From the NCBI GenBank assembly GCA_028279065.1, contig JANQSY010000155.1, forward strand, positions 1-34,123: a stretch of 34,123 nt of DNA. The letters are read 5' to 3'. Source of the stretch: Cytophagales bacterium (GTDB taxonomy: Bacteria > Bacteroidota > Bacteroidia > Cytophagales > CCMP332). This document shows, piece by piece, positions 4,734 to 27,469 of this stretch; position 1 is the stretch's first letter, and each line of letters starts with the position of its first letter. The notes below the pieces were generated by a model. It worked only from the letters and a program-made list of their open reading frames with translations, made no database searches and was not told the DNA's origin. The translations under genes were made by a program, and so were the position numbers.

Positions 4734-6383
4734 TCAATTTTTTGCCTTCTTGACTTCCTCTTTCAACAAAACATTCAGGATGGAGTGGTTCATTGAATAA
4801 TCAACCGCCAGGTCGATCAAATGAACCCCCGGCTCCTCCAATGTCTTGTTAAGAATGTCCTGAAAATCCTTATCGTTTTGGGGCCTGTGACCGATCGCTC
4901 CATAACTCTCTGCATATTTAACGAAATCCGGATTTTTATAATCCAGCCCCCAGTTTTCGAACCCCATTCCTTCCTGTTTCCATTTGATCATCCCATAGGC
5001 ACTGTCATTAAGAACTATAACCACAAGGTTCAGGCCCATCCTCACAGCGGTTTCCAGTTCCTGGGAATTCATCATAAATCCGCCATCACCGGCAATTGCG
5101 ACTACCGGTGCTTCCGGGTTCAACAATTTGGCAGCCATGGCACTGGGTAGTCCGGCTCCCATCGTTGCGAGGGCGTTATCCAACAAGATGGTATTTGCTT
5201 CATAGGCCTTGTAGTTCCTTGCAAACCAGATCTTGTAAATTCCGTTGTCCAAAGCAAGAATTGCATTTCCAGGTAACCTTTTTCTGAGCAGGTGAACAAG
5301 TCGTTGCGGAACCATTGGAAATCGATCATCTTGAAAATGCTTGCTCAACCTTTGATCGATCTGATCTTTGATCTCGAACATGGATCCTGAATCCCAGTTG
5401 CCTGCATTCTTCACCTCCTGGCTGATCCTCCAAACCGAGTTTGCAATATCCCCCACCACATTTAGCTGAGGGAAATAAACTTCATCCACTTCGGCAGGGA
5501 AGAAATTTATGTGGATCACCTTTTTTCCTCCATGCTTCATGAAGAAAGGAGGTTTTTCGATCACATCATGACCAACATTTATGATCAGGTCTGCCATGTC
5601 GATCGCATGGTGTATGAAATCCGTTGATGAGAGGGCAGCTGTCCCAAGGAAATTGGGATGACGTTCATCAATAACCCCCTTGCCCATCTGAGTGTTGAAG
5701 AATGGGATGTTGAGTTTTTCAATGAATTCCTTCAGCATCTTGCCCGTTCTTTTTCTGTTGGCTGCCGCACCGATCAACAGCAACGGGTTTTTCGATTCAT
5801 CGATCATTTTAGCTGCAAGCATGATGGCCTTGTCGTCAGGGACCGGTCTGCGGCTGCCGACAGGTTCGAAGACAGTTGGGTTGTCCACCTCTTCAGCTGC
5901 GATGTCCTCAGGCAGCTCGATATGGGTAGCCCCTGGTCTTTCTTCTATGGCGATCCGGAATGCTTCCCTGATGATCGAGGCGATCCGGCTGCCATCTACC
6001 ACCGAATGGGTGTACTTGGTAAGAGGACGCATCGTGTCCACAATATCTACGATCTGAAAGCGACCCTGCTTGCTGGATTTGATCGGTTTTTGGCCTGTGA
6101 TCATTAGCATGGGCATAGCTCCGAGCTGGGCATAGGCTGCAGCTGTTACAAAATTGGTGGCTCCGGGACCCAAAGTGGAAAGACAGACGCCAGGCTTCCC
6201 CGTTAACCTTCCATAGGTAGCCGCCATGAACCCCGCCGCCTGTTCATGACGTGTAATGATCAATTCGATCTTTGACTTACGAAGGGACTCAAGGAAATCC
6301 AGGTTTTCTTCGCCAGGTATCCCGAAAATGTATTCAACACCTTCGTTTTCCAGAGCTTTAATAAAGAGGTCGGATGCTTTCAT
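4734..6383 (-). CDS. Acetolactate synthase-like ThDP-dependent enzyme
   Basis: A 549-residue enzyme with the three-domain layout of acetolactate synthase, pyruvate oxidase and related decarboxylases. It has an N-terminal pyrimidine-binding domain with the catalytic Glu47 (ITRHEQAAGFMA), a central domain (about 190-330), and a C-terminal ThDP-binding domain. The latter carries the metal/diphosphate motif beginning GDGGFMMN at residue 432 and ending near VLND at 460. It would act on a 2-oxo acid in the cytoplasm. No small regulatory subunit and no ilvC or ilvD lie nearby, so a branched-chain biosynthetic role is unlikely. The 27-base link to an aldehyde dehydrogenase points to a catabolic decarboxylase or ligase. 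A gene symbol is withheld because the substrate is unknown. The ATG start at 6383 lies 20 bases after a near-consensus -7 element. Confidence 0.88.
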   Translation of the reverse strand: MKASDLFIKALENEGVEYIFGIPGEENLDFLESLRKSKIELIITRHEQAAGFMAATYGRLTGKPGVCLSTLGPGATNFVTAAAYAQLGAMPMLMITGQKPIKSSKQGRFQIVDIVDTMRPLTKYTHSVVDGSRIASIIREAFRIAIEERPGATHIELPEDIAAEEVDNPTVFEPVGSRRPVPDDKAIMLAAKMIDESKNPLLLIGAAANRKRTGKMLKEFIEKLNIPFFNTQMGKGVIDERHPNFLGTAALSSTDFIHHAIDMADLIINVGHDVIEKPPFFMKHGGKKVIHINFFPAEVDEVYFPQLNVVGDIANSVWRISQEVKNAGNWDSGSMFEIKDQIDQRLSKHFQDDRFPMVPQRLVHLLRKRLPGNAILALDNGIYKIWFARNYKAYEANTILLDNALATMGAGLPSAMAAKLLNPEAPVVAIAGDGGFMMNSQELETAVRMGLNLVVIVLNDSAYGMIKWKQEGMGFENWGLDYKNPDFVKYAESYGAIGHRPQNDKDFQDILNKTLEEPGVHLIDLAVDYSMNHSILNVLLKEEVKKAKN

Positions 6384-6403
6384 TTTAGATATAGATCAGC
6401 CTC

Positions 6404-6411
6404 TAAAACTA
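6404..6411 (-). promoter_or_regulatory. Candidate -7 element for ThDP enzyme operon
   Basis: The minus strand reads TAGTTTTA, 7 of 8 matches to TAnnTTTG, 20 bases upstream of the ATG at 6383. The position matches other predicted promoters in this window. No convincing -33 TTG was found. Confidence 0.35.
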
Positions 6412-6450
6412 AGTAATGAAAGCTTTTAGTTCCAGTACGTATGAAAAGGG

Positions 6451-7878
6451 CTAGATCTTAGAGAAACGGAGGGTTTTAAGGCCTTTTCCGGATCTTATCC
6501 TTAGCAAATAGCTTCCTGGCACGATTCCACGTACATCGATCTTCTTTTCCTGGCCCTCCATGATGATCTTTCCCTTGAGATCTGTCATCTGCCAGATCTC
6601 GATTTCCTCAAGATCGATCCTGATCTCCTCATGAGATGGATTGGGATAGACCGAAATAGCATCGTGCTCATCATCGAATTCATCCGTACCGGTCACCCAT
6701 AACTGAAACCTTGCAATACGCGAGAGGGGAGTATTGGCTACATCATTTGTATTGGTAAAGAACCCCCCTGCCACGATGGCGCCATCCCAATATAATAGAC
6801 CCTCCACATCGTTATTCAGGCCATTGTTCAGAGTGCTCAAGGAATCTATGTATTGTCCGTTGGATTGGATCAAGGCTGCAATACTTCCGGCCGGAACCGT
6901 GCCATTTGGGTATTGGATCTCATCGAATCCACCGGAAATCAGGAATCTACGCCATAGAGCCCCCTCGTCCAAGAGTTTAATCGTATGTACGAATCCGAAT
7001 CGTTGCGGATTGTTCATTTTTAGATCGAATCCGGGGTTTTCCCAGGCCGTCCCATTCCACCGGGCTACCATAGAAGTTCCTGTAGAACCTGACATTGTAA
7101 AAGCCCCCCCGACGTAGAGGTCTCCAAGTTCTGTTGCTCCAATGGCGTAGACCGTATTATCGAAACCGGAGCCCATAGCCTCCCAACTTGCCCCATTCCA
7201 TTTTGCTATTCCATTAACCGTGATCCCACCGGCCTTCAGGAAGTTTCCGCAAACCAGGAGATCCCCGTTGTATACGAACAATTGATGAGGGTTGATCACC
7301 GACCCGAACATGGGATCTGAGAGCCCGGAGCCAAAGGGATTCCAATCACTCCCATCCCACCACGCAATTCCATTGATCGTATCGGAACCGACTCTGTTGA
7401 ATTCTCCACATGCTACGATCTTGTTATCCCATTCGATCACATCGAACAAGTTGCAGGTATAGAATTGGGAGGGGTTATTCCCCTCCAGAAAAAAACCTGA
7501 ACCCAGCTTTTTCCAGCTCCCGTTGTCAAGGTAGTGGACCCAATTTGAGTCTGAACCCAATTCATACCTGACCAGGAAGAGCGTGTCCCCGATCTTTTCC
7601 ATGGCATGGCCGGCGTCGTCCAGTCCTCCTCCAACCTCTACCCAATTTCCGACTCCAAAATCATATTTGGCCGCATAACTTGCGGGTACTCCTTCAATAG
7701 TGGTAAAGAATCCAGTTGCATAGATCTCTTCCAGGTTATGGGGATCGCCATTATCAGAGTGCAGATCAACAATTGTTCCATTTGTGGGACCCTTGTATTG
7801 ATAATCGAATGGTACCCATTGACCGAATGAAACCTGCCAAATAAGAACTAAAGGAATGGTTAAAAGTATTCTTTTCAT
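6451..7878 (-). CDS. T9SS-exported beta-propeller-like repeat protein
   Basis: A 475-residue secreted protein. I place the start at the ATG complementary to 7876-7878, giving MKRILLTIPLVLIWQVSFGQ, a good signal peptide; the frame extends 32 codons further upstream but without secretion-like sequence. The body holds repeats of the pattern NGIAxWxGxxWxxxGSG (for example NGIAKWNGASWEAMGSGF), spaced about 50-60 residues apart, as in kelch- or delta-60-like propellers. The C-terminal 75 residues are a T9SS type-A sorting domain: ISVYPNPSHEEI, then DLKGK, GSYLLRI and a basic end KTLRFSKI. It should be secreted through the outer membrane and anchored or released at the cell surface. The ligand is unknown. 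It is separated from the ThDP enzyme gene by 67 bases and is probably transcribed independently. Confidence 0.85.
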   Translation of the reverse strand: MKRILLTIPLVLIWQVSFGQWVPFDYQYKGPTNGTIVDLHSDNGDPHNLEEIYATGFFTTIEGVPASYAAKYDFGVGNWVEVGGGLDDAGHAMEKIGDTLFLVRYELGSDSNWVHYLDNGSWKKLGSGFFLEGNNPSQFYTCNLFDVIEWDNKIVACGEFNRVGSDTINGIAWWDGSDWNPFGSGLSDPMFGSVINPHQLFVYNGDLLVCGNFLKAGGITVNGIAKWNGASWEAMGSGFDNTVYAIGATELGDLYVGGAFTMSGSTGTSMVARWNGTAWENPGFDLKMNNPQRFGFVHTIKLLDEGALWRRFLISGGFDEIQYPNGTVPAGSIAALIQSNGQYIDSLSTLNNGLNNDVEGLLYWDGAIVAGGFFTNTNDVANTPLSRIARFQLWVTGTDEFDDEHDAISVYPNPSHEEIRIDLEEIEIWQMTDLKGKIIMEGQEKKIDVRGIVPGSYLLRIRSGKGLKTLRFSKI

Positions 7879-8074
7879 CGCAATACAAATCAGGTATGGA
7901 ACCTCGAAATCTGAAATAATTTGTTTTGGTTGTTTTTTCAGTGCCCTATGACCTTTAAGTAGAAAAAATTGCATCCTCTAAGGATTTTACAACCGTAACT
8001 TTCTATCCTCCGTAAACCTTTTCACCACGCATTTAAATCGTTATTTTTAACGTGGGAGAGTAGCCTTCAATCCT
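7879..8074. other. Divergent intergenic region
   Basis: These 196 bases lie between two divergent starts and should hold both promoters. On the plus strand TATTTTTA (8042-8049) is a 7-of-8 match to the -7 consensus, 25 bases before the ATG at 8075. It lies within a small inverted repeat, CGTTA/TAACG (8039-8043 and 8048-8052), itself flanked by CCACG (8025-8029) and CGTGG (8051-8055). I found no equally good element for the leftward gene, and no RNA gene or small ORF I trust. Confidence 0.3.
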
Positions 8075-9553
8075 ATGAGGAAAAAGGGAAACATCCATGC
8101 GCTGGTCCACGCACTGACCAAGACCGAGAAGAGGTATGTAAAAGTTTTTGCTAAACTCCATGGCGATAGCCCCAATTACATACGCCTGCTTGAGGCGATC
8201 GAGGAACAGGTCCAGTACGACGAGGCCGCAATCAAAAAGAAGTTTGAGGGAGAAGCTTTTACGAAACAGCTCCATGTAACCAAGAACTATCTTCAGAACC
8301 TTATCCTCAAAGCGCTCCGAAATTTCTATCATCATCCGCTTTCCAGGGCGGAGCTCCTTGACATGCTCCGTAACATCGAGATCCTTTTTGAGAAGGGGTT
8401 AAAGGATCATGTAGAGTTCTACCTTTTAAAGGGCATAAAATGGTCCCGGGAGATCGAATGTTTTGATCTTCAATTCTCTTTTCTGGACTGGCAGAAAAAA
8501 TGGCTTCAAAGCTTCTGGTCTGAAGCATTTAGGGAGCACAGCAAGTATATGGACCGGGATTTTACATCCTGTCTGAATAGCATGATGAATCTGGATGAGT
8601 ACCGGCACCTTTACGATAATATGGACAAGCTGCTTTCGAGCTCCAGGATAGCGAAGGGTTATTACACCGATGAGGTTATAGGGAGCCCATTGATGGAGAG
8701 TTCCAAAAAAGTACTTTCCATCAGAGGAAGGATGATCTTCCATAAGATACTATTCAGGTACCATTATATCCATAAGGACAATCTAAAAAGAGGCATCCAG
8801 GAAGGCAGAAAATTGCTGGAGTTGGGCAGGGACCATAAACACATAATAGTCCACCATTTGGAAGATTTCCTTGAGGGACTTTGGTCCATGGTAAGAGCCC
8901 TCTTTAAAGCTGGCGAGACCGAGATACTGCAGGAGTTTCTCAATGAGCTGAGCGCGATCTTCAAGTCCCTTGGGGATGGCCAATCTTTTTCCAATATCCA
9001 CGTGAATCAACTCGAGGTTCTTTCCTGGCAACTAAGGGTGCTTGAGATTGATCCCTCCAGATTTAACCGGAGCCAGTGGGAGAAACAATTTGAAAGAGAG
9101 GTTGAGTCAAATAAGTCTCGTCTGTTTGCGAAACCATTAGCCAAAACCCTATTGATCAAGGCGTGGATGGCATATTACTACGGCGATCTCGGTAGCTGCA
9201 AGGAATTCTCAAACCAGATCCTGGGCGAATTCAATTATCCTACCTATATCGCCTACAGGGATTCCGCATTGATGTTCCTGAACCTGGTGGCCTTGAGAAG
9301 CAACCGCATCCCATCCCTGAAGCTGACCTACAATAACTCTCGGAAGATCTGGGCCTCAGACGGGAAAGGACCCCTTTCTGAAAGGAGGAAGATCTTCGGT
9401 TCTCTGGTGAATCAAAAAAGGGAAAACTGGGGCAGGGAGATCAACAAGACCATTCAATCAGAGAAAAAGAAAAGAGATAAAAGGTTTCTCTCAGCTATCA
9501 ACGAAAAAGAGGTATTTGTTTTCTTTGGAAAACAATATCTGGAAAATGCTTAA
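8075..9553 (+). CDS. Large helical protein of unknown function
   Basis: This 492-residue protein has no signal peptide or membrane segment, so it is probably cytoplasmic. It is rich in Lys, Glu, Arg and Leu and appears almost wholly alpha-helical. The N-terminus reads as a compact charged domain (HALTKTEKRYVKVFAKLH near residues 12-29). The remainder has helix-pair spacing reminiscent of TPR or similar alpha-solenoids (for example YYGDLGSCKEFSNQILGEF). I do not recognise a named family; proteins of this look occur as uncharacterised genes in Bacteroidota. It is followed with an 8-base overlap by a small membrane protein and then a GH20 hexosaminidase, so it may be part of that unit. A protein-interaction scaffold is the most I would infer. 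Confidence 0.75.
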   Translation: MRKKGNIHALVHALTKTEKRYVKVFAKLHGDSPNYIRLLEAIEEQVQYDEAAIKKKFEGEAFTKQLHVTKNYLQNLILKALRNFYHHPLSRAELLDMLRNIEILFEKGLKDHVEFYLLKGIKWSREIECFDLQFSFLDWQKKWLQSFWSEAFREHSKYMDRDFTSCLNSMMNLDEYRHLYDNMDKLLSSSRIAKGYYTDEVIGSPLMESSKKVLSIRGRMIFHKILFRYHYIHKDNLKRGIQEGRKLLELGRDHKHIIVHHLEDFLEGLWSMVRALFKAGETEILQEFLNELSAIFKSLGDGQSFSNIHVNQLEVLSWQLRVLEIDPSRFNRSQWEKQFEREVESNKSRLFAKPLAKTLLIKAWMAYYYGDLGSCKEFSNQILGEFNYPTYIAYRDSALMFLNLVALRSNRIPSLKLTYNNSRKIWASDGKGPLSERRKIFGSLVNQKRENWGREINKTIQSEKKKRDKRFLSAINEKEVFVFFGKQYLENA

Positions 9554-14272: not shown

Positions 14273-14845
14273 TCAAAGTAAGGCATTATTTACCAGCTTC
14301 TCCAGCTCTGGAACCAACTCCCTTTCGAACCAGGGATTTCTCTTTAACCAGCCATAATTTCTGGGGGAGGGATGGACCGTTGGAATGAATTCGGGAAGGT
14401 ATTCCCTGAAGTTCTTTACTGTTTCGGTAAGGGTCTTCTTCTTTCGTTTTCCCAGGTAATGATTGATGGCATAACTCCCGATCAGCAATGTGAGTTTTAC
14501 ATTGGCAAGCTCAGGAAGGAGCTTTGGATGCCATTGAGGCGCACACTCCGGCCTGGGTGGTAGGTCCCCGGACCTTCCTTTCCCAGGATAACAAAATCCC
14601 ATAGGGATGATTGCTATTCTGGACTCATCATAGAACTTCTCCCTGCCCATGTTCAGCCAGGACCTTAATCTGTCTCCTGAGGGGTCATTCCATGGGATTC
14701 CACTGTTATGGACCTTCGTACCCGGTGCCTGCCCTATAATGTTGATGCTGGCTGTTTTTGAAGCTCTTAGAACAGGGTTGGGCCCCAATGGAAGGTGCTT
14801 TTCGCATATCCTGCAGCCACGGATTTCTTTCAGGAGATCTTCCAA
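14273..14845 (-). CDS. Uracil-DNA glycosylase family protein (4-Cys type)
   Basis: A 190-residue member of the uracil-DNA glycosylase superfamily (COG1573-like), which excises damaged bases, usually uracil, from DNA. Motif 1 is GQAPGTKVHNSGIPWND (residues 38-54) and motif 3 is HPSPRN (158-163). Cys11, Cys14, Cys85 and Cys101 show the CxxC plus C-x15-C arrangement of iron-sulfur family 4/5 enzymes, so a [4Fe-4S] cluster is likely. The start must be TTG at 14845, because an in-frame TAA is immediately upstream and the resulting N-terminus MEDLLKEIRGCRICEKHLPL fits the family. It precedes the GH2 lipoprotein gene by three bases. Which lesion it removes is uncertain. Confidence 0.85.
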   Translation of the reverse strand: MEDLLKEIRGCRICEKHLPLGPNPVLRASKTASINIIGQAPGTKVHNSGIPWNDPSGDRLRSWLNMGREKFYDESRIAIIPMGFCYPGKGRSGDLPPRPECAPQWHPKLLPELANVKLTLLIGSYAINHYLGKRKKKTLTETVKNFREYLPEFIPTVHPSPRNYGWLKRNPWFERELVPELEKLVNNALL

Positions 14846-14955: not shown

Positions 14956-15726
14956 ATGAGATTTTACATTTCCCATCAGGAGGAGTATTCCAGGCTTGAG
15001 TTGATCCTCAGGACGCTATTCGGGTACTTCTACATTGTTCTTCCCCATGCATTCATTTTAATGTTTCTTGCTTTATGGGGATCGATCTTGACCTTTATTG
15101 CATTCTGGTCAATCCTATTCACCGGCCGGTACCCGGAGAGTTTCTTCGAGTACCAGGTCAAGCTGATCAGGTGGCAAACCAGGGTCAACGCAAGAATGTA
15201 CAATCTGGCGGATGAATACCCCGCATTCGGATTGAATGCCGAGGATTCCCATGTCGATGTGCAGATCGCTTATCCTCAGTCCTTAGGCCGAGGGATGGCT
15301 ATTGTCAAAGTATTATTTGGTGGACTTTATGTTGGACTGCCTCATGGATTCATTCTGATCTTCAGAGTGATCTGGACCTTTATCCTGGTGATTGTTGCCT
15401 GGTTTGTGGTTCTTTTCACAGGAAAATTTCCCGAAAGCATGCATGAGTTCATCGTGGGTACAATGAGGTGGTCCACCAGGGTCAATCTTTATTTGGGATT
15501 GATGACCGACGACTATCCGCCTTTTTCAGGTGCTCCGGATCCTGACCATGATTCCTATGGAGGCGGCAGTTCAGCCCCTGAGGCACCTGCACCTACAGCT
15601 CCACCCGCAGTAGAACCTCCACCTCCACCTGCCCCTGAACCGAGTTCAGAAGGAAGTGCTGATGCGGGATCCGACGAGGTTAGTGGAGAATCCGAAGGTG
15701 ATAGGGAAGAGAAAAAGGAGGAATAG
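14956..15726 (+). CDS. Membrane protein with two DUF4389 domains
   Basis: A 256-residue inner-membrane protein with two tandem copies of the DUF4389 unit. Each copy has a pair of membrane helices followed by ILFTGRYPESFFEYQV or VLFTGKFPESMHEFIV, then RWQTRVN or RWSTRVN, and ends in EYPAF or DYPPF. The copies cover about residues 10-90 and 115-195. The C-terminal 60 residues are a Pro/Ala/Ser linker that becomes strongly acidic (SEGDREEKKEE). I chose the ATG at 14956 because MRFYISHQEEYSRLEL resembles the usual family N-terminus; the ATG at 14899 adds 19 unsupported residues. The DUF4870 gene follows two bases later. The molecular function of DUF4389 is not known to me. Confidence 0.8.
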   Translation: MRFYISHQEEYSRLELILRTLFGYFYIVLPHAFILMFLALWGSILTFIAFWSILFTGRYPESFFEYQVKLIRWQTRVNARMYNLADEYPAFGLNAEDSHVDVQIAYPQSLGRGMAIVKVLFGGLYVGLPHGFILIFRVIWTFILVIVAWFVVLFTGKFPESMHEFIVGTMRWSTRVNLYLGLMTDDYPPFSGAPDPDHDSYGGGSSAPEAPAPTAPPAVEPPPPPAPEPSSEGSADAGSDEVSGESEGDREEKKEE

Positions 15727-15728
15727 GA

Positions 15729-16217
15729 TTGACGGAATATCACCCACTACCCCAACCGGACGATATACCGGTTAGAGAAAAGGAAGATGCCATGGGAGCT
15801 TACTTCATGATGTTTGCTTCCGTGGCCATCGGCCTTCCTTTGCCCATTGTTAACCTTATTGCTGCCATTGTCTATTATTATCTTAACAAGGACAAAAGCA
15901 GGTATGTGAATTTTCACGCCCTTCAGTCTCTCCTTTCCCAGCTTCCAACCACGGTGATCAATTGGGGTGTGTTTTATATCCTTATCAGGTATTTTTTTTG
16001 GGAGGATGAGTTCACCCGTATCCATATGGCTTACATAGGGATGGCGGTTGTTGCTAATCTTCTTTACTTTATTTTTTCCATTGTGGCTGCGGTGAAGGCA
16101 AGAAAGGGCAGATTCTATTATTTTGTTTTCTTCGGATCATTTTGCTATAACCAGGTTTACAAGATCAGGGAAGAAAGGCCCCAAGGTAAAGCCGAAAACC
16201 TACCTCCAAAGATCTGA
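15729..16217 (+). CDS. DUF4870-like membrane protein
   Basis: A 162-residue protein with four hydrophobic helices (about 24-50, 66-86, 98-124 and a weaker one near 128-142). The segment NKDKSRYVNFHALQSLLSQ, between the first two helices, is the hallmark of the DUF4870/TIC20-like family of small membrane proteins. Translation appears to begin with TTG at 15729, two bases after the preceding stop, because the N-terminal segment PVREKEDAMGAYFMM reads as conserved; the first ATG (15792) would cut into it. Its TGA overlaps the ATG of the M48 protease by one base. It is presumably made together with its DUF4389 and protease neighbours. Function is unknown. Confidence 0.75.
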   Translation: MTEYHPLPQPDDIPVREKEDAMGAYFMMFASVAIGLPLPIVNLIAAIVYYYLNKDKSRYVNFHALQSLLSQLPTTVINWGVFYILIRYFFWEDEFTRIHMAYIGMAVVANLLYFIFSIVAAVKARKGRFYYFVFFGSFCYNQVYKIREERPQGKAENLPPKI

Positions 16218-17026
16218 TGCAGGGCAGGATGTTATTGGGCCTTTTGGCCCTCGTCGTGTTTTTTGGAGGAATCATGGGTCTGTTTTACCTATGGGACCCC
16301 AATATTGATGCGGAGCTTGCCGCAACCATCTCAATTGAGTCTGAGGATGACCTTGGAGATCTGATCTATGAAAGCCTTTTGGAAGATCCTGATATAAACA
16401 TTTACTCCGACCCGGAGATCGATTCCATGTTGCTGGTGATTATAGATCCATTAATGGAAAACCATGATCCATCAGATTTCGATTTTCGGTTTTATATTCT
16501 CGATGACCCATTGATCAATGCCTTTGCTATTCCCGGAGGAAGGATCTTTGTTGGGCGAGGTCTGATAGAGCTTGTGAACACTCAGGAGGAATTTCTGGGT
16601 GTTATGGGTCATGAGATGGGCCATGTGCATCACCGACACGTGATAGAAAGACTGGCCAGAGAATTGGGTATGAATGTCCTTCTTGGCCTTGCGACCGGAA
16701 CCGATGCCATTCTGATAAGTGATATAGGTAGGTCTCTACTCAGTACGGGGTTTGATCGCAAATCCGAAAAGGAGGCCGATGAATACTCCCTTGATCTACT
16801 GGTTAAATGCGGGATCCATCCCCACCATATGGCTACATTTTTCAGGCGCCTTAACCGTGAGAAGCTGAGCTATAATGAAAATCTGGAGTTCATGATGTCA
16901 CACCCTCATAACAATGCCAGGATAAAAACCGCTATGGAATATGAGGTCCCTGTGGATTTTGAATCCGTAGATCTAGGGGACTCCTGGGAAAGCTTTCAAT
17001 CCCACCTGGCGAAGGAACCCACTTGA
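16217..17026 (+). CDS. M48-family zinc metalloprotease, membrane-anchored
   Basis: A 269-residue M48-type peptidase. An N-terminal anchor (MLLGLLALVVFFGGIMGLFY) is followed by an acidic segment and the catalytic domain. The zinc site is His132-Glu133-x-x-His136 (GHEMGHVHHRH), with the third ligand Glu184 in the ExxxD motif EKEADEYSLDLL. NAFAIPGGRIFVGRGLIEL and the closing SHPHNNARIKTA are also typical of this family. It is likely an envelope-facing protease in membrane protein quality control, comparable to BepA/LoiP-type enzymes, though without a TPR domain. The start codon overlaps the DUF4870 stop. The AlkB gene follows after 50 bases. Confidence 0.9.
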   Translation: MQGRMLLGLLALVVFFGGIMGLFYLWDPNIDAELAATISIESEDDLGDLIYESLLEDPDINIYSDPEIDSMLLVIIDPLMENHDPSDFDFRFYILDDPLINAFAIPGGRIFVGRGLIELVNTQEEFLGVMGHEMGHVHHRHVIERLARELGMNVLLGLATGTDAILISDIGRSLLSTGFDRKSEKEADEYSLDLLVKCGIHPHHMATFFRRLNREKLSYNENLEFMMSHPHNNARIKTAMEYEVPVDFESVDLGDSWESFQSHLAKEPT

Positions 17027-17076
17027 AATTCTTGAACCTATCTTTATCCAAATTGTTGGAGATTTGGGGATAGGAA

Positions 17077-18117
17077 ATGTTCAAACCACTCAAGTATTTT
17101 TCGATCATTACTCTGCCTGTCCTGGCAGTGATTGCCCTGGTGCATAAGGGGATATTCTCTTTCCTGCCAGTCATGGAAGCCTTTCTAATGGTACCTCTAT
17201 TTGAGTTGTTCTTTAGGCCTCAACACGCGAATCATACGGCAGAGGAAGAATCGGAATTGCTAAAAAACCCACTTTTTGACTGGGTTCTGTATCTGTTTGT
17301 ACCGGTTCATTTTTCTGTCCTGCTTTTGTTTCTTTTTTTCATGTCAGGGTTTGAAGGGGCCTGGTGGGAAGGATTGGGTCTAACCCTTTCAATGGGTTTG
17401 CTCTGCGGCGTGTTTGGGATCAATCTTGCGCACGAGTTGGGGCATAGGAGCCGGATCGGAGAAAGGTTTCTTTCAAAAGCCCTTTTGATGACCTCCCTGT
17501 ATATGCACTTCAACATTGAACATAACCGTGGGCATCATAAGCATGTAGGAACCCCGGATGACCCTTCTACAGCAAGGTTTGGCGAGCCCATTTTCATTTT
17601 TTGGTTTCGTTCGGTTTTCGGAACCTGGATCTCGGCTTGGCATATCGAATTTGACCGACTGCGAAAGCTTGGTAAGGGTAAGTTTTCCATAGAAAACGAA
17701 ATGCTGAGAATGCAGCTTATACAGATCGGGTTCATGATGGCTATTTTCACTGTTTTCGGGCTGAAAGCCCTAATCTTTTTTCTTCTTGCGGCCATTACGG
17801 GATTCCTTTTATTGGAGACTGTCAATTATATCGAGCACTATGGCTTGAGAAGGGACAAACTGGAGAATGGGAATTATGAAAGGGTGATGCCCAAACATTC
17901 CTGGAATTCCGACCATATTTTTGGAAGGATACTCCTCTTTGAATTATCAAGGCATTCCGATCATCATTACAAGGCAAGCAGAAAGTATCAGATCCTTAGA
18001 TACCATGAGGATTCACCACAGATGCCAACCGGGTATCCGGGCATGATGATCCTTGCGCTGGTCCCACCTATCTGGTTCAGCGTAATGAATCCAAGGATCA
18101 GGAGAGCTTCAAAATGA
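17077..18117 (+). CDS. AlkB-type alkane monooxygenase-like di-iron hydroxylase
   Basis: A 346-residue integral membrane protein of the AlkB/xylene monooxygenase family, non-heme di-iron enzymes that hydroxylate terminal carbons of alkanes or fatty compounds. The histidine ligands are present: HELGH (His119-123), HNRGHHKH (His149-154), NYIEHYGL (His254) and RHSDHH (His293-297). About six membrane helices surround them. The length is somewhat under the roughly 400 residues of Pseudomonas AlkB. No rubredoxin or rubredoxin reductase gene is in the window, so the electron donor is encoded elsewhere or differs. The stop codon overlaps the start of a 54-residue membrane protein (ATGA), implying translational coupling. 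The substrate could be alkanes or a native lipid; the neighbourhood favours a membrane-lipid role, but that is inference. Confidence 0.88.
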   Translation: MFKPLKYFSIITLPVLAVIALVHKGIFSFLPVMEAFLMVPLFELFFRPQHANHTAEEESELLKNPLFDWVLYLFVPVHFSVLLLFLFFMSGFEGAWWEGLGLTLSMGLLCGVFGINLAHELGHRSRIGERFLSKALLMTSLYMHFNIEHNRGHHKHVGTPDDPSTARFGEPIFIFWFRSVFGTWISAWHIEFDRLRKLGKGKFSIENEMLRMQLIQIGFMMAIFTVFGLKALIFFLLAAITGFLLLETVNYIEHYGLRRDKLENGNYERVMPKHSWNSDHIFGRILLFELSRHSDHHYKASRKYQILRYHEDSPQMPTGYPGMMILALVPPIWFSVMNPRIRRASK

Positions 18118-18278
18118 AACTTGGAGCCTATTTGAACATTTTTGCCGGTATCATGGTCTTGCTAGCCGGAGCCTGGCGGGGAAATCTCGAAATGAACTTC
18201 TACGTTATTTTTCCGATCGGGATATTCTTCCTGGCCATAGGCTTGTTTTATTTGTGGCGGCTAAAAAAAGGTCGCTAG
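18114..18278 (+). CDS. Small two-helix membrane protein coupled to AlkB
   Basis: A 54-residue ORF whose ATG overlaps the alkB-like stop codon as ATGA. It encodes MKLGAYLNIFAGIMVLLAGA, a short polar turn (WRGNLEMNFY), a second helix ending AIGLFYLW, and a basic tail RLKKGR. Two membrane passes with a positive cytoplasmic end are likely. The four-base overlap, clean composition and absence of any conflicting gene make it a credible missed gene. The next gene (18281) begins two bases after its stop. It may be an accessory subunit or stabiliser of the hydroxylase; no family is recognised. Confidence 0.65.
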   Translation: MKLGAYLNIFAGIMVLLAGAWRGNLEMNFYVIFPIGIFFLAIGLFYLWRLKKGR

Positions 18279-18280
18279 CC

Positions 18281-19996
18281 ATGGAGAAAGTCCTTTTTCT
18301 CTTTCTGGCAGTTATTTCTTTTCCAGGCTTGGCTCAAAATCCTGCATGGCAGAAAACCTATTCCGGAGGTGGAAGCTTCAGCTCACCGAAGTCTGTGGAT
18401 CTTAATAATGATGGATTTGAAGACATAGTTCTTGGAGCCGGTAGGGAGGATTCAAGCTCAGTTCTTGGTGTCTTGGCAATTAACGGGCGGAATGGGGATA
18501 CCCTTTGGACCATTCCCAGCAGGAATCAGATCTATACCTCGGCCGTGTTTGAGGATATTGATGGAGATAGTATACCCGATATTTTCATTGGAGGCAGGAG
18601 AGCCCTGCTGTTTTGCCTTAGTGGGGTAAGCGGCCAAAAGATCTGGGAATTTTGGCCGGATCATGTTGGCAGACCCGATACAGCGGGATGGTATAATTTC
18701 TACTCCCCTTTCTTGATCCAAGATATTACCGGAGATGGAAGAAGGGATATCATTATCACCAATGGTGGAGATCCGGGAGCATTGGGGGGGAATCCTGACA
18801 GACCTGCAGGTAGTCTTTTAGCCATCAATTCTTCAGATGGGTCGATAATTCAGATGGACAGCATGCCGGACGGCGCCGAAACCTATTTTTCACCTCTTGT
18901 GCTTGATCATGATAATGATGGTTTGGAATCTATCTTTTTCGGATCAGGCGGGGAGACGCTTCCGGGAGGATTCTGGGAGATCGGCCTTCAGGAATTCCTG
19001 AATAATGGACTCTCAAATGCAAACCTGATCGACTCAGATACCAATAAGGGCTTTATTGCCGTATGCAGCTTTGCTGACCTGAACGGTGATGGAGTGTTCG
19101 ATCCCATAGTCCCACATATGAACTCCAAACTGACTGCCTATGATGGAAGTGATTTCAGTACTCTTTGGGAGCATTTTGTACCTGGTACGGAGGTATATAT
19201 GTCACCGGTTCCCGGCAACTTCACTTCAAACCTTGCTCCCGATATCTATGTGTCTTTTGCAGTTGGAGTTTGGCCCTTTTATACTTCCTACGTTGCAACC
19301 CTCATTGATGGTGGATCAGGGCAATTGATCTGGTCCGATACCCTACAATACTTTCACTTGGCCTCCCCGAATGCTTTAGATTATGACCAGGATGGATTTG
19401 ATGAGATACTATTTATGGAGAATGTTGACCAGGGCTCAACCACCGTTTCAATTGTAAATAGATGGAAGCTATACGATTTTTCTCCTTTCTCTTTTCAGTA
19501 CTTGGGTGGAATCCGGCCGGGCAGCAACCTTTTTTCTACCCCACTGATCAAGGATATGAACAAAGACGGCGAGCTCGAGATTGGATTCAACTTTTATCCC
19601 GCAACTATTGAATGGTATGGTTTTGAAAGTGTGGGATTTGGAAGATGGGATATAGGGATATTCCAGGATCCGGTCCCATGGGGGGGATACCTTGGCAGTT
19701 TCGGGGATGGGACCTATAGGAACAATCTGATCAGCCAATTGAAAGGCGATTTTGAGGAAGAAATTTTTGTTTACCCAAACCCAGTTAGACAATCAGACGA
19801 AGTCCTGATCACCACTCCGTTTCACCAAGAGCACATGGTTAGGTTATTCGACCAGGCAGGTAAGCAATTGGACAAAAATGCCATCAAACGCGGTCCAAAT
19901 CTGATTGCCATGGATGTAAGTGATTTAAAATCAGGATTTTATATTCTTTTGTTAGAAAATGGTTGGAGTAAGAAACTCCTGATTATTGGCGATTAA
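18281..19996 (+). CDS. T9SS-exported FG-GAP/VCBS repeat protein
   Basis: A 571-residue secreted protein starting MEKVLFLFLAVISFPGLAQN, a signal peptide. The frame is open nine codons further upstream, but that part overlaps the 54-residue gene and lacks signal features. The body carries FG-GAP/VCBS repeats with EF-hand-like calcium loops DxNxDGxxD: DLNNDGFEDIVLG, DIDGDSIPDIFIG, DITGDGRRDIIIT, DLNGDGVFDP, DYDQDGFDEILF and DMNKDGELEIGF. A seven-bladed integrin-alpha-like propeller is likely. The C-terminal domain (IFVYPNPVRQ, FDQAGKQL, SGFYILLLENG, KKLLIIGD) is a T9SS type-A sorting signal, so the protein goes to the cell surface or medium. Ligand unknown; adhesion or polymer binding is plausible. 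Confidence 0.88.
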   Translation: MEKVLFLFLAVISFPGLAQNPAWQKTYSGGGSFSSPKSVDLNNDGFEDIVLGAGREDSSSVLGVLAINGRNGDTLWTIPSRNQIYTSAVFEDIDGDSIPDIFIGGRRALLFCLSGVSGQKIWEFWPDHVGRPDTAGWYNFYSPFLIQDITGDGRRDIIITNGGDPGALGGNPDRPAGSLLAINSSDGSIIQMDSMPDGAETYFSPLVLDHDNDGLESIFFGSGGETLPGGFWEIGLQEFLNNGLSNANLIDSDTNKGFIAVCSFADLNGDGVFDPIVPHMNSKLTAYDGSDFSTLWEHFVPGTEVYMSPVPGNFTSNLAPDIYVSFAVGVWPFYTSYVATLIDGGSGQLIWSDTLQYFHLASPNALDYDQDGFDEILFMENVDQGSTTVSIVNRWKLYDFSPFSFQYLGGIRPGSNLFSTPLIKDMNKDGELEIGFNFYPATIEWYGFESVGFGRWDIGIFQDPVPWGGYLGSFGDGTYRNNLISQLKGDFEEEIFVYPNPVRQSDEVLITTPFHQEHMVRLFDQAGKQLDKNAIKRGPNLIAMDVSDLKSGFYILLLENGWSKKLLIIGD

Positions 19997-20060: not shown

Positions 20061-21383
20061 ATGAATATTAATCACCTTAGAACGACCTTATTTTCTTTGA
20101 TCTTAATCGCAGGGACTCTTGTGGAATCACGGGCTCAGGCGGTGTCAGTGCTTTCGATGAATTTACCTCCGAATGCAACAAGCTGCACCCCATCCACCGT
20201 GACTCTGAACCTGCAGATCCTCTGCACCAATTACATCTTTGACAGTACAAACTACAATATTGTAGGAGATACCGTCCATGTAGGAGTATATTATTCCGAT
20301 CCGGGGATCTGTTTACCGGCCATAGGTTTTCCGATTCATAATGTGAACATGGGCAATGTTCCTGCGAACACCTATACCGTGATCGCAACTGCATATTTCG
20401 ATTTATCCGCAACATCAGCTCAGGCTGCTTTCCCTTGGACAGTGATCTCCTGTTGTAATGCAACTCCTGCATTTACCAGCAGCAGCACATCAGTATGTCC
20501 AGGAGATACCGTGAACTTTGTTAATACATCTTCCAACGACAGCGCTCATGTCTGGTACGTCGATAACATGCTTATCGGATCTCCTGACAGTTTTGAGTAC
20601 GTTTTCAATAATCCTGGGAATGTGGATGTAAAGCTTGTGGTTTATGGTTCAAATTGTGCGGATTCCACCATTCAGGCAATAACGGTTAACTCTCTTCCAG
20701 CTGTAGATCTTGGTCCGGATGTGGATTTCTGTGAAGGAACTTCGACCCTTCTCGATGCCGGTCCAGGTTGGGTTGATGTTTCTTGGTCCAATGGGGACAG
20801 CACGCGAAGAACTACGGTCAGCCTTCCTGGAGATTATTCAGCAATGGTAACCGATGGTAATGGATGTGTGAACTCCGATACAATTACGGTAACTGAATTG
20901 CCTGCACCGGTAGTTGATCTTGGAGGTGATACCGTGGCTTGTACAGGCACCCTGGTTTTCCTCAATGCCGGCAATGCAGGATCCACGTTTAGCTGGAATA
21001 CTGGTGACACTACTCAGTCAATACCGGTTTCTCAAGCAGGCGGATATGCGGTTACCGTTACCGGAAGCAACGGATGTAGCGGATATGATTCAGCTTTTGT
21101 TTTGTTTACCGTCTGCAACAGCCTTTCATCTGAATTTGGAAAAGGGGTTGATCTTTATCCAAATCCTGTTGAAACTGAGCTGACCCTGAAGATCCAAGAT
21201 GGAACTCAAGGCAGGGTTAACTATGTTGTTGTTGGAGTTGATGCTAGAGAGTATCTAAAAGGGACCGTTGATAAAAAATCTGGTCAAGCAATCATCAATA
21301 TGGAAAAACTGGAAGCGGGGATTTACTATATTCAAATCTCAAATGGTACCGATTTTGCTACGCATAAGATCGTGAAGCGTTAA
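20061..21383 (+). CDS. T9SS-exported protein with PKD/Ig-like repeats
   Basis: A 440-residue secreted protein. An N-terminal signal peptide (LRTTLFSLILIAGTLVESRAQ) is followed by a cysteine-containing domain. A PKD-like stretch (FTSSSTSVCPGDTVNFVNTS) comes next, then two Ig-like repeats of the type common in gliding-associated proteins: VDLGPDVDFCEGTSTLLDAG...WSNGDST...GDYSAMVTDGNGC, repeated as VDLGGDTVACTGTLVFLNAG...WNTGDTT...GGYAVTVTGSNGC. Paired cysteines in each repeat suggest disulfides. The end is a T9SS type-A domain (VDLYPNPVETELTLKI, AGIYYIQISNG, THKIVKR). It is probably a surface adhesin or matrix component. A strong terminator follows. Confidence 0.87.
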   Translation: MNINHLRTTLFSLILIAGTLVESRAQAVSVLSMNLPPNATSCTPSTVTLNLQILCTNYIFDSTNYNIVGDTVHVGVYYSDPGICLPAIGFPIHNVNMGNVPANTYTVIATAYFDLSATSAQAAFPWTVISCCNATPAFTSSSTSVCPGDTVNFVNTSSNDSAHVWYVDNMLIGSPDSFEYVFNNPGNVDVKLVVYGSNCADSTIQAITVNSLPAVDLGPDVDFCEGTSTLLDAGPGWVDVSWSNGDSTRRTTVSLPGDYSAMVTDGNGCVNSDTITVTELPAPVVDLGGDTVACTGTLVFLNAGNAGSTFSWNTGDTTQSIPVSQAGGYAVTVTGSNGCSGYDSAFVLFTVCNSLSSEFGKGVDLYPNPVETELTLKIQDGTQGRVNYVVVGVDAREYLKGTVDKKSGQAIINMEKLEAGIYYIQISNGTDFATHKIVKR

Positions 21384-23840: not shown

Positions 23841-24181
23841 GTGCCCAAATTAAGATTTCCGTTGGAGATCGGCATTTGAACAGAGCTGCCCAGTAGGGAA
23901 GACTTGATATGAGCTGGCATATCATCAGGCCCTTCATATGTATGCCTGTAATATGGGGCATTTTCAGGCACCATTTTGTTGAAATGGCTTTCAAAATCCT
24001 GCCTAACCGTAGGGTCTGCATTTTCATTCAGGGTCAATGATGCAGAGGTGTGCTTAATGAAAACCTGGAGTATCCCTGACTTAAAGTCCGAGATCTCCGG
24101 AATTCCCTTAATAACCTCATTGGTGATCAGATGAAAGCCTCTCGAATAAGGGCCCACTATGATCTCCCTTTGGGTTGTCAT
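23762..24181 (-). CDS. yjbQ: YjbQ/UPF0047 family protein
   Basis: A 139-residue member of the YjbQ (UPF0047) family, small cytoplasmic proteins with thiamine-phosphate synthase activity reported for some members. The family signature HTSASLTLNENADPTVRQDF is intact, as is the C-terminal GTWQGIYLCEHRDH with conserved His and Glu likely to bind metal. The length is the family standard. The ATG overlaps the upstream beta-helix gene stop by four bases (ATGA), and the 3' end overlaps the DJ-1 lipoprotein start, so it is translated within one operon. The physiological role is still poorly defined. Confidence 0.93.
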   Translation of the reverse strand: MTTQREIIVGPYSRGFHLITNEVIKGIPEISDFKSGILQVFIKHTSASLTLNENADPTVRQDFESHFNKMVPENAPYYRHTYEGPDDMPAHIKSSLLGSSVQMPISNGNLNLGTWQGIYLCEHRDHASSRKLVLTAFGD

Positions 24182-25629
24182 CCGTCCCCCCTTTCGTAAG
24201 CTCCCATATCTGGCTTTCCGTCGTTCCTTGGATCTCCATTCAGGTCCTGGGGCGGAATGGCGATACCTTGATCCCCGACATTTTGTGCTGGAGATAAAGT
24301 ATCCAATCGATAATCGTATTCCTCAGGATCGACGAACTGCAGGGTATCGGTATTGGAGGAAACTATATTTCCCAGTAATTCCAATTCATTTTGGGCATCC
24401 TTGTCCGTCACCTTAAGGAAGTTGAATGAGGCATCAAAACCGTTTCCTACGCCCAGGAATGAAGAAATGAATTCATCCTGGATATTTCCCCATGCGATGG
24501 AATTCCTCATATAGAAATTCATAGGATTGATCTCATTGCTGCCCGGAATGCCGGTGGAATCGGGAAACCAATCGGTCACAAAGATGGAAGGGTCTTCCTG
24601 CCTGCTGAAATCGAAACCATAACTGGCCACAGTAATGTGTCGCAGATCCCAGGTCCCGCCCAGAAATGCCCCGATACCGTACCTTCCGCAGTTGGTGATC
24701 AATAAATTTGATCCTGTGCAGGTTCCTCCATAAGATACTATTCCATCCAGCGTCATGTTCTTTATGATGGTGTTAGTTATTGTGATATCCGGCCTGTTTG
24801 CATCATAGACATTCCCGATCTGAACCCCGGAGGTCCCATTCTTGATCACGGCCCAGTTGATCTCATTGTTGTTTGAAGGGTCAAGCAGCCAAATCCCTGC
24901 CTGAAATCCTGAATTTCCCCATTGTCCCGGTTGATTGTCAAATTCCTCTTCCAGGCGTGAACCGCAAAAGGTCACAGGCTCATTCTCGGTTCCCATTACC
25001 TTTATGGTTCCCCAAACAAAAAAGGTCGACCTGCCGTCCAGATAAACCTTGGTCCCGGGGTCTATCACAAGCGTCTGTGCGGTGTCAACCCCGACAGAGT
25101 TCACGATAACAATGGGAAGGTCAGGGGTCCAGTGCAATTCTTCAGGTGGGAAATTGTTCCCCTCTCCAAGGAGATAGTTTTCATAGTAGATAGCATCCTG
25201 CCCCCATGATCGGAGATAGATCTGCTGCATATTCCCATTCGTAACAAATAGGATTGAGTCCTCAACCAAGAAAGGAAGGTTTTGCCCGCTGGCTTCTACC
25301 TGTACGGTGACCAGGACATAAATGCTATCGTTTCCTCTGATCTCAACGTCCTTGGCCTGATCGGTTTCGTCACCATTCACGATAATGGTATAAGGGGAGG
25401 AAGATCCTCCTGCAAGGGTCACCCTGGAAACATTGACCGCGTTTTCCGACGGATTAAATACTCTGATCCTTTTTGTGATGTTCTTGATCTCAGCAAATAC
25501 AGTATCGAAGATGACCGAGTCGGTTGAGAACCTCAGTTTTGCATTGGGATCGGTAGTGAGAACCTCATCCTTGGGAGTGCAGGCCCAAAGGGCCAATAGG
25601 ACCAATATCAGGTTTCGGATGTTGTTCAT
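24178..25629 (-). CDS. Beta-helix lipoprotein with choice-of-anchor Q-type end
   Basis: A 483-residue lipoprotein. The start MNNIRNLILVLLALWACTPK has a lipobox ending at Cys17. An N-terminal Ig-like domain (about 30-130; FAEIKNITKRIRVFNPSENA) is followed by a parallel beta-helix region (about 190-400) with repeats such as ITITNTIIKNMTLDGIVSYG and LLITNCGRYGIGAF. The end, DYRLDTLSPAQNVGDQG then GKPDMGAYERGD, matches the choice-of-anchor Q / pectate-lyase-like terminal motif. I see no defined catalytic triad, so it is likely a surface carbohydrate-binding or structural protein rather than a proven enzyme. It sits two bases after prfA and overlaps yjbQ. Confidence 0.82.
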   Translation of the reverse strand: MNNIRNLILVLLALWACTPKDEVLTTDPNAKLRFSTDSVIFDTVFAEIKNITKRIRVFNPSENAVNVSRVTLAGGSSSPYTIIVNGDETDQAKDVEIRGNDSIYVLVTVQVEASGQNLPFLVEDSILFVTNGNMQQIYLRSWGQDAIYYENYLLGEGNNFPPEELHWTPDLPIVIVNSVGVDTAQTLVIDPGTKVYLDGRSTFFVWGTIKVMGTENEPVTFCGSRLEEEFDNQPGQWGNSGFQAGIWLLDPSNNNEINWAVIKNGTSGVQIGNVYDANRPDITITNTIIKNMTLDGIVSYGGTCTGSNLLITNCGRYGIGAFLGGTWDLRHITVASYGFDFSRQEDPSIFVTDWFPDSTGIPGSNEINPMNFYMRNSIAWGNIQDEFISSFLGVGNGFDASFNFLKVTDKDAQNELELLGNIVSSNTDTLQFVDPEEYDYRLDTLSPAQNVGDQGIAIPPQDLNGDPRNDGKPDMGAYERGDG

Positions 25630-26815: not shown

Positions 26816-27469
26816 ATGAAGGCATTCGCGATTCTCTCAATTGTAGGCATGGTTCTCCTGTCATGCGGAGGCGATCAAAGCCAGCTTGATAGTAAAGCAT
26901 TAAAAAAGGAGATGTCGGATAGGGAGATCAAAAAGATTAGTGAGAGCGAAATTTTGAATCTGGCGAAGGAACGGGGAGATAAGATTGCCACCCAGGCACA
27001 GATGGCTTTAGGATCCAAACTGAAAGAAGCTCTTCAGGAAGGTGGTCCCGTGCACGCCCTGGAATTTTGCAATGTAAATGCTTACCCACTCCTTGATGAT
27101 CTGCGAGAAACCTATAATGTTTCAATCAAACGAGCCAGCCTGAGAACCAGAAACCCCGATGATAAGCCTAATGATATCGAAGCTCAGATCCTGGATGCCT
27201 ACCAGTACAATATTGAAAATGAATTGGAATTAAATGATAATCTTCAAAAACTGGGAGATTCTGCGATTTTGTTTACCAGGCCAATTAGCCTTAACAATGG
27301 CATCTGCTTGAATTGCCATGGCGAGGTAGGAACAGAAATAAACCAGCTCACCCTTGAGAAGATCGAAGAACTATACCCTGAAGACAATGCCAAAGGACAT
27401 AAATTGGGGGATCTAAGGGGAATGTGGAGTATTGTATTCGATCGGAAGGAGTTGGTTCTGGACCTTTAG
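26816..27469 (+). CDS. DUF3365 (Tll0287-like) c-type heme lipoprotein
   Basis: A 217-residue lipoprotein. MKAFAILSIVGMVLLSCGGD has a lipobox (LLSC). The domain resembles the DUF3365/Tll0287-like sensor fold: an early helix (QAQMALGSKLKEALQEGG), AFEF-like ALEFCNVNAYPLLDD, and SIKRASLRTRNPDDKPNDIE, followed by the heme-attachment motif CLNCH at Cys164-Cys167-His168. The protein is free-standing, whereas the domain is often fused to signalling modules, so an electron-transfer or redox-sensing role in the periplasm is inferred. It is divergent from prfA and its stop lies two bases from that of yicC. Confidence 0.85.
   Translation: MKAFAILSIVGMVLLSCGGDQSQLDSKALKKEMSDREIKKISESEILNLAKERGDKIATQAQMALGSKLKEALQEGGPVHALEFCNVNAYPLLDDLRETYNVSIKRASLRTRNPDDKPNDIEAQILDAYQYNIENELELNDNLQKLGDSAILFTRPISLNNGICLNCHGEVGTEINQLTLEKIEELYPEDNAKGHKLGDLRGMWSIVFDRKELVLDL

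Follow-up and report, generated by a model that had tools for sequence, protein, structure and literature searches.

The locus

The stretch of DNA analysed here, which we call the window, is the 34,123-nucleotide contig JANQSY010000155.1 of a Cytophagales bacterium (assembly GCA_028279065.1). Its subject is a run of five rightward open reading frames that code for a tandem DUF4389 membrane protein (gene A), a DUF4870 or HOTT membrane protein from a family linked to the chloroplast import protein Tic20 (gene B), an M48 metalloprotease (gene C), a homologue of the AlkB diiron monooxygenases and a 54-residue membrane protein (Table 1). The positions of these frames, their spacings of 2, -1, 50 and -4 bases and the family assignments made in the initial annotation (DUF4389, DUF4870, M48 and AlkB, here by Pfam) were confirmed. 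That annotation had further taken the five genes as a single, undescribed membrane unit. In our hands the idea of such a unit stands for genes A-B-C, and it does not stand for AlkB and the 54-residue protein: judging by gene order across genomes, the block very probably is made up of two adjacent but unrelated units, an A-B-C module and the pair of AlkB and the 54-residue protein. Module and pair are neighbours in this genus only.

Table 1. Features of the locus, in window coordinates
Feature	Position	Strand	Evidence
Gene A, tandem DUF4389 membrane protein, 256 aa	14956..15726	+	PF14333 E=3.1e-19, two repeats
Gene B, DUF4870/HOTT (Tic20-related) membrane protein, 162 aa, TTG start	15729..16217	+	PF09685 E=9.8e-11
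Gene C, M48 metalloprotease, 269 aa, one N-terminal membrane anchor	16217..17026	+	PF01435 E=3.9e-28
AlkB-family diiron monooxygenase homologue	17077..18117	+	FA_desaturase E=2.9e-33; phmmer to 8f6t, 8sbb
54-residue two-helix membrane protein, overlaps alkB end	18114..18278	+	two hydrophobic segments
Uracil-DNA-glycosylase-superfamily gene	14273..14845	-	PF03167 E=4.9e-22

Gene A starts with an ATG at 14956 that all six rows of an alignment share. In gene B, the residues Q9, P10 and E17, all of which lie upstream of the first ATG, are each kept by 90% or more of the 77 homologues; because residues before that ATG are conserved, the gene uses the TTG at 15729 or a nearby start. Its product passes the Pfam gathering score for DUF4870 (42 bits, cut-off 25), and all 77 aligned homologues match the family at E<=0.001. 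A Pfam scan of the 54-residue protein gave nothing significant.

Two units side by side

For an order-level survey we searched 98 genomes, that of the window included, for AlkB, DUF4389 and DUF4870 and examined the neighbourhoods. AlkB is present in 50 of them and the DUF4389-DUF4870-M48 trio in five (G000, G001, G002, G004 and G061), two of which, G004 and G061, have the trio and no AlkB. The complete five-gene order was found in two genomes, G000 and G001, both from the genus of the window, i.e., the neighbourhood as a whole is conserved only among close relatives. AlkB occurs in three of the five trio genomes and in 47 of the 93 others, which amounts to no association (Fisher p=1.0). Furthermore, G002, a member of the same family, carries both units on one contig but about 0.9 Mb apart, with the trio near 0.79 Mb and AlkB near 1.69 Mb, and among the 80 loci from GTDB genomes described below, AlkB stands beside the trio once, in the genus mate. 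The same strand and the close spacing in the window and the genus mate would favour the view that all five genes, AlkB among them, make up one system for membrane maintenance or lipid modification, but with its confinement to one genus, the trio genomes that lack AlkB and the distance between the units within the same family, the conservation data lead us to reject a reading that is barely credible; nor did we find support for the lipid-modifying role once proposed for the block.

The surroundings of the trio may also show how the two units came together. It sits exactly between the uracil-DNA-glycosylase gene and AlkB, and in G002 AlkB, together with the 54-residue protein, comes immediately next to the divergent glycosylase gene (locus L037, with the glycosylase at 6305-6886 on the minus strand and AlkB at 6953-7999 and the small protein at 7992-8165 on the plus strand). 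Since the two genes adjoin directly in this relative, it is the trio that separates them in the genus of the window, and the simplest reading of these gene orders is that it was inserted at the junction within the genus. It is possible that the trio was instead lost or moved in G002.

The DUF4389-HOTT-M48 module and its variant

The name HOTT was given to DUF4870 in a study that also links the family to Tic20 (PMC11628618). A scan of GTDB genomes with our HOTT alignment gave 448 relatives, of which we kept the best 80, i.e., those most similar to the HOTT of the window. The order DUF4389-DUF4870-M48 is found in 71 of these 80 loci, 68 of them without an extra copy. Where enough flank was available, DUF4389 lies upstream of HOTT in 73 of 74 loci, M48 lies downstream in 72 of 76, and both flank HOTT in 65 of 70. 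The median gaps are 3.5 bases between DUF4389 and HOTT and 1 base between HOTT and M48, and the next commonest neighbour family of the module appears in 17 of the 80 loci. The carriers are labelled as Cytophagales, Flavobacteriales, Bacteroidales, Chitinophagales/Saprospiraceae, Ignavibacteriota and, in one case, as a 'Myxococcota' metagenome-assembled genome, the taxon labels of such genomes being their depositors' own. Among the named carriers are the cultured genera Reichenbachiella and Marivirga (L117, L141, L155, L165 and L166). A-B-C is a compact, strictly ordered and widely conserved operon that is independent of AlkB.

The distribution of the module is patchy, as a HOTT match of this kind was found in 14 of 395 genomes sampled across the phylum. 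M48 adjoins HOTT in 11 of the 13 loci that this sample gives when the window is set aside. The HOTT matches in G058 and G029 are weak (25-26% identity) and are not among the fetched loci, and plasmids gave no HOTT match at E<=1e-4. The locus sets were not summed, and L102 is apparently the same contig as L035 (7346 bases each, layout reversed). The alignments used throughout hold 81 rows for DUF4389, 77 for HOTT and 43 for M48, from which some similar, short or broken rows were dropped by hand; the M48 alignment took about half of the available rows.

In other Bacteroidota we observed an operon of the order TM2-DUF2752-DUF4870-M48 (L182-L192), the Pfam names of which were checked on L183 and L188. 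Among 18 further HOTT loci, HOTT is next to M48 in 15, and this second architecture is complete in 12. DUF4389 is found in none of the 18, and neither TM2 nor DUF2752 in any of the 80 GTDB loci. Both architectures share the HOTT-M48 pair and differ in the accessory, and hence HOTT-M48 looks, from gene order, like the core, with DUF4389 and the pair of TM2 and DUF2752 as alternatives. Searches of open-licence papers found neither the trio nor its TM2-DUF2752 sister described, and none of the papers searched mentions DUF2752; the trace of DUF4389 that we saw in this literature is a gene-table row in P. aeruginosa. The families as such are known, but their combination into a module of protease and HOTT with partners that can be exchanged appears to be new.

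The accessory of the window was also modelled. The predicted structure of the DUF4389 protein (pLDDT 88.7) consists of two repeats of one long and one shorter helix. It has no Foldseek match in the PDB at E<=0.001, its best VIA Z is 4.0, and the sequence profile finds no solved relative at E<=1. We take this as the absence of a match for a predicted model and not as proof of a new fold.

The protease and the HOTT protein

Gene C matches Peptidase_M48 with 99 bits (cut-off 20.3), and an HExxH motif together with one N-terminal hydrophobic segment is present in all 43 aligned M48 homologues. When the M48 profile was run against the 98 genomes of the order-level survey, 83 had some match at E<=1e-20. 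The nine M48 proteins adjacent to HOTT score between 234.7 and 363.9 bits, and every other M48 scores at most 184.4. Four of the nine (G001, G002, G004 and G061) are absent from the profile, though for G002, G004 and G061 it may hold a near-identical locus from another collection. Judged by these scores, the HOTT-adjacent proteases are a distinct, dedicated subfamily.

The nearest solved relatives of the M48 profile are 3c37 and BepA (6sar). Gene C has the M48 domain in common with BepA and LoiP, and its single N-terminal segment fits an exported catalytic domain. However, at 269 residues it is without a TPR-sized extension, it is genetically tied to HOTT, and it stays below the curated cut-offs for both (100.2 vs 570 bits for BepA, 75.3 vs 365 bits for LoiP). 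HtpX is likewise a membrane-associated M48 protease, but it has a multi-pass membrane domain in place of the one N-terminal segment of gene C, which reaches 29.8 bits against the best HtpX model (curated cut-off 275).

For the HOTT protein, the predicted structure (pLDDT 90.7) was re-aligned to PDB chains, and the top three VIA rows are chains of TIC complexes from Chlamydomonas and Arabidopsis: 7vcf_W (Z 8.5, 3.7 Å, 130 aligned), 7xzi_B (Z 8.0, 4.0 Å, 133 aligned) and 8z9y_B (Z 8.0, 3.7 Å, 122 aligned). By their size and context, these chains are probably Tic20, and 7xzi was used as the Tic20 structure in PMC11628618. Gene B belongs to the same Pfam family as the MamF-like proteins treated there, and its predicted fold agrees, by a small margin, with the proposed relationship. 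In contrast to MamF-like and Tic20 proteins, which serve magnetosomes or plastids, the HOTT of the window is tied genetically to a protease. According to the same source, a role in protein targeting has been demonstrated for MamF-like members only, and HOTT is completely uncharacterised outside magnetosomes; its main text contains neither the term M48 nor the term Bacteroid.

The AlkB homologue and its electron donor

The AlkB protein of the window matches the solved alkane monooxygenases 8f6t (phmmer E=1.8e-78) and 8sbb (7.8e-78) over nearly the full length and keeps all histidine motifs. Nine histidines, which we take to be the iron ligands (H119, H123, H149, H153, H154, H254, H293, H296 and H297), do not vary across the 59 aligned rows. 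By its sequence, then, it is a full-motif alkane-monooxygenase homologue. It is 27-51% identical to eight annotated plasmid AlkB references, and in a tree it falls within a group from Bacteroidota. Six plasmid-borne reference enzymes form a clade apart from this group, and for five of the six a rubredoxin is annotated in the fetched stretch. The initial annotation had named grouping with rubredoxin-linked enzymes as evidence that would overturn its view of the block, and such grouping is not seen. As the XylM branch in this tree is very long, we drew nothing from the tree beyond the fact that the rubredoxin-linked clade is separate.

It had been noticed that no rubredoxin gene lies near alkB, and this extends to the whole genome, which is 97% complete and has no PF00301 match at E<=0.001. 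In the order, PF00301 is found in eight of the 50 genomes that carry AlkB, as compared to 22 of the 48 that do not (p=0.002, uncorrected for the relatedness of the genomes). All but one of the 30 matches lie in frames of 472-586 residues, the remaining one in a frame of 70. Two of the long proteins were scanned and have the rubredoxin at the C-terminus; one of them also contains a NIR/SIR half domain. An open reading frame that presumably is moaA lies downstream both of one of the two scanned proteins and of the short-frame case. Since rubredoxin domains are found almost only within proteins of about 490 residues, a stand-alone rubredoxin of the AlkG type was not found in the 98 genomes of the order, half of which carry AlkB.

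Whether the AlkB homologue and its small partner act as an alkane or fatty-chain hydroxylase with an electron donor other than rubredoxin is, to our mind, an evenly balanced question. The intact histidine motifs and the scarcity of PF00301, mostly in long frames, where AlkB is present would argue for such a donor, and Dokdonia without AlkG and AlkT has already been reported, as stated in PMC10654063. On the other hand, we noticed nothing ferredoxin-like among the families that recur beside alkB in 51 loci, and a divergent rubredoxin could escape the search. More generally, these loci show no conserved electron-transfer neighbour: the recurring families are each found in at most nine of them, and some are opposite-strand shadows of alkB itself. 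The 54-residue protein was rejected as a general AlkB partner, being found in three of the 51 loci, all from the family of the window. In a family of small genomes (about 1.1-1.6 Mb; L036, L038-L041), alkB is followed directly by several genes in a row which, as far as we can judge, resemble the tryptophan pathway.

On its downstream side the block does not end at 18278 as first described, since an FG-GAP gene with a type IX sorting tail begins two bases later, at 18281; the genus mate carries a different gene after the 54-residue protein. Type IX secretion cargo proteins (FG-GAP and PKD-like) occupy 18281-19996 and 20061-21383 of the window, and near release-factor and YicC-like genes there are genes for a beta-helix protein (24178-25629) and for one that is Tll0287-like (26816-27469). 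An anti-phage defence system was considered for the five proteins and rejected, as none of them matched a PADLOC defence family at E<=0.01.

Possible function of the module

Our preferred reading, which we hold tentatively and rate at somewhat below an even chance, is that A-B-C may be an inner-membrane quality-control or maturation protease for which HOTT is the client adaptor. The M48 domain would be periplasmic, held by its single N-terminal anchor, and would degrade or trim membrane or exported proteins. HOTT would bind clients within the membrane and hand them to the protease, and the accessory (DUF4389, or TM2 with DUF2752) would gate or tune the complex. This reading builds on observed features of the module: the genes are linked and strictly ordered, with gaps that are tight or negative, the M48 proteins form a subfamily of their own, the predicted fold of HOTT is Tic20-like, and in the second architecture TM2 and DUF2752 take the place of DUF4389.

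Several observations weigh against this reading. The 80 loci are those closest to the HOTT of the window, with the remaining 368 of the 448 relatives outside the count; five of the 70 well-flanked loci lack gene A or gene C; L093, L193 and L194 carry HOTT without M48; and no fusion among the module genes was seen in the fetched loci. A two-repeat DUF4389 stands alone in nine loci (L092 and L094-L101), with neither HOTT nor M48 in the fetched flanks, and thus is not an obligate partner and has other contexts. As to the HOTT model, the fourth VIA row is an unrelated helical protein with a Z of 7.3, a margin of less than 1, and the best Foldseek row, again an Arabidopsis TIC complex, is weak (E=0.3, probability 0.89). 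The HOTT sequence profile (77 rows) finds no PDB chain at E<=1, so that the likeness to Tic20 leans partly on the published family assignment. Given the small margin, and since middling Z values are common for helical proteins, the fold agrees with the link between HOTT and Tic20 and does not prove it.

Two other explanations are both rather unlikely in our estimate. HOTT could itself be an insertase or translocation conduit, as has been proposed for Tic20 and MamF-like proteins, with M48 processing or clearing the proteins that pass and proteolysis as a downstream service. The TIC-complex chains at the head of the structural list would fit this, but no client is known, and free-living bacteria already possess Sec, which counts against a further conduit. 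The family assignment and the deletion phenotype of MamF-like proteins (PMC11628618) also speak for a conduit, although the same source regards what exactly Tic20 does as unsettled. Alternatively, DUF4389 (or TM2 and DUF2752) together with HOTT could be sensors of the membrane state that switch on M48 without handling clients, much as stress-response proteases are activated. That the accessories swap while the HOTT-M48 core stays constant is what one would expect of sensors; however, beyond the module itself no further family recurs strongly beside it, as the ceiling of 17 loci shows.

To return to the protease with a HOTT adaptor, its boldest form would be a machine for translocation-coupled membrane proteolysis, with interchangeable accessories: clients would be moved through the membrane, or out of it, by a Tic20-type protein and so reach a dedicated periplasmic M48. 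We consider this improbable, but if true, it would provide a bacterial setting for the Tic20/HOTT fold outside organelles. For the organism at hand, AlkB should be read apart from the HOTT-M48 module. For the HOTT family, being strictly linked to a single subfamily of proteases, with two alternative sets of membrane partners, offers an initial role that can be tested in free-living bacteria, and the module thereby may open a route to asking what Tic20-like folds did before plastids.

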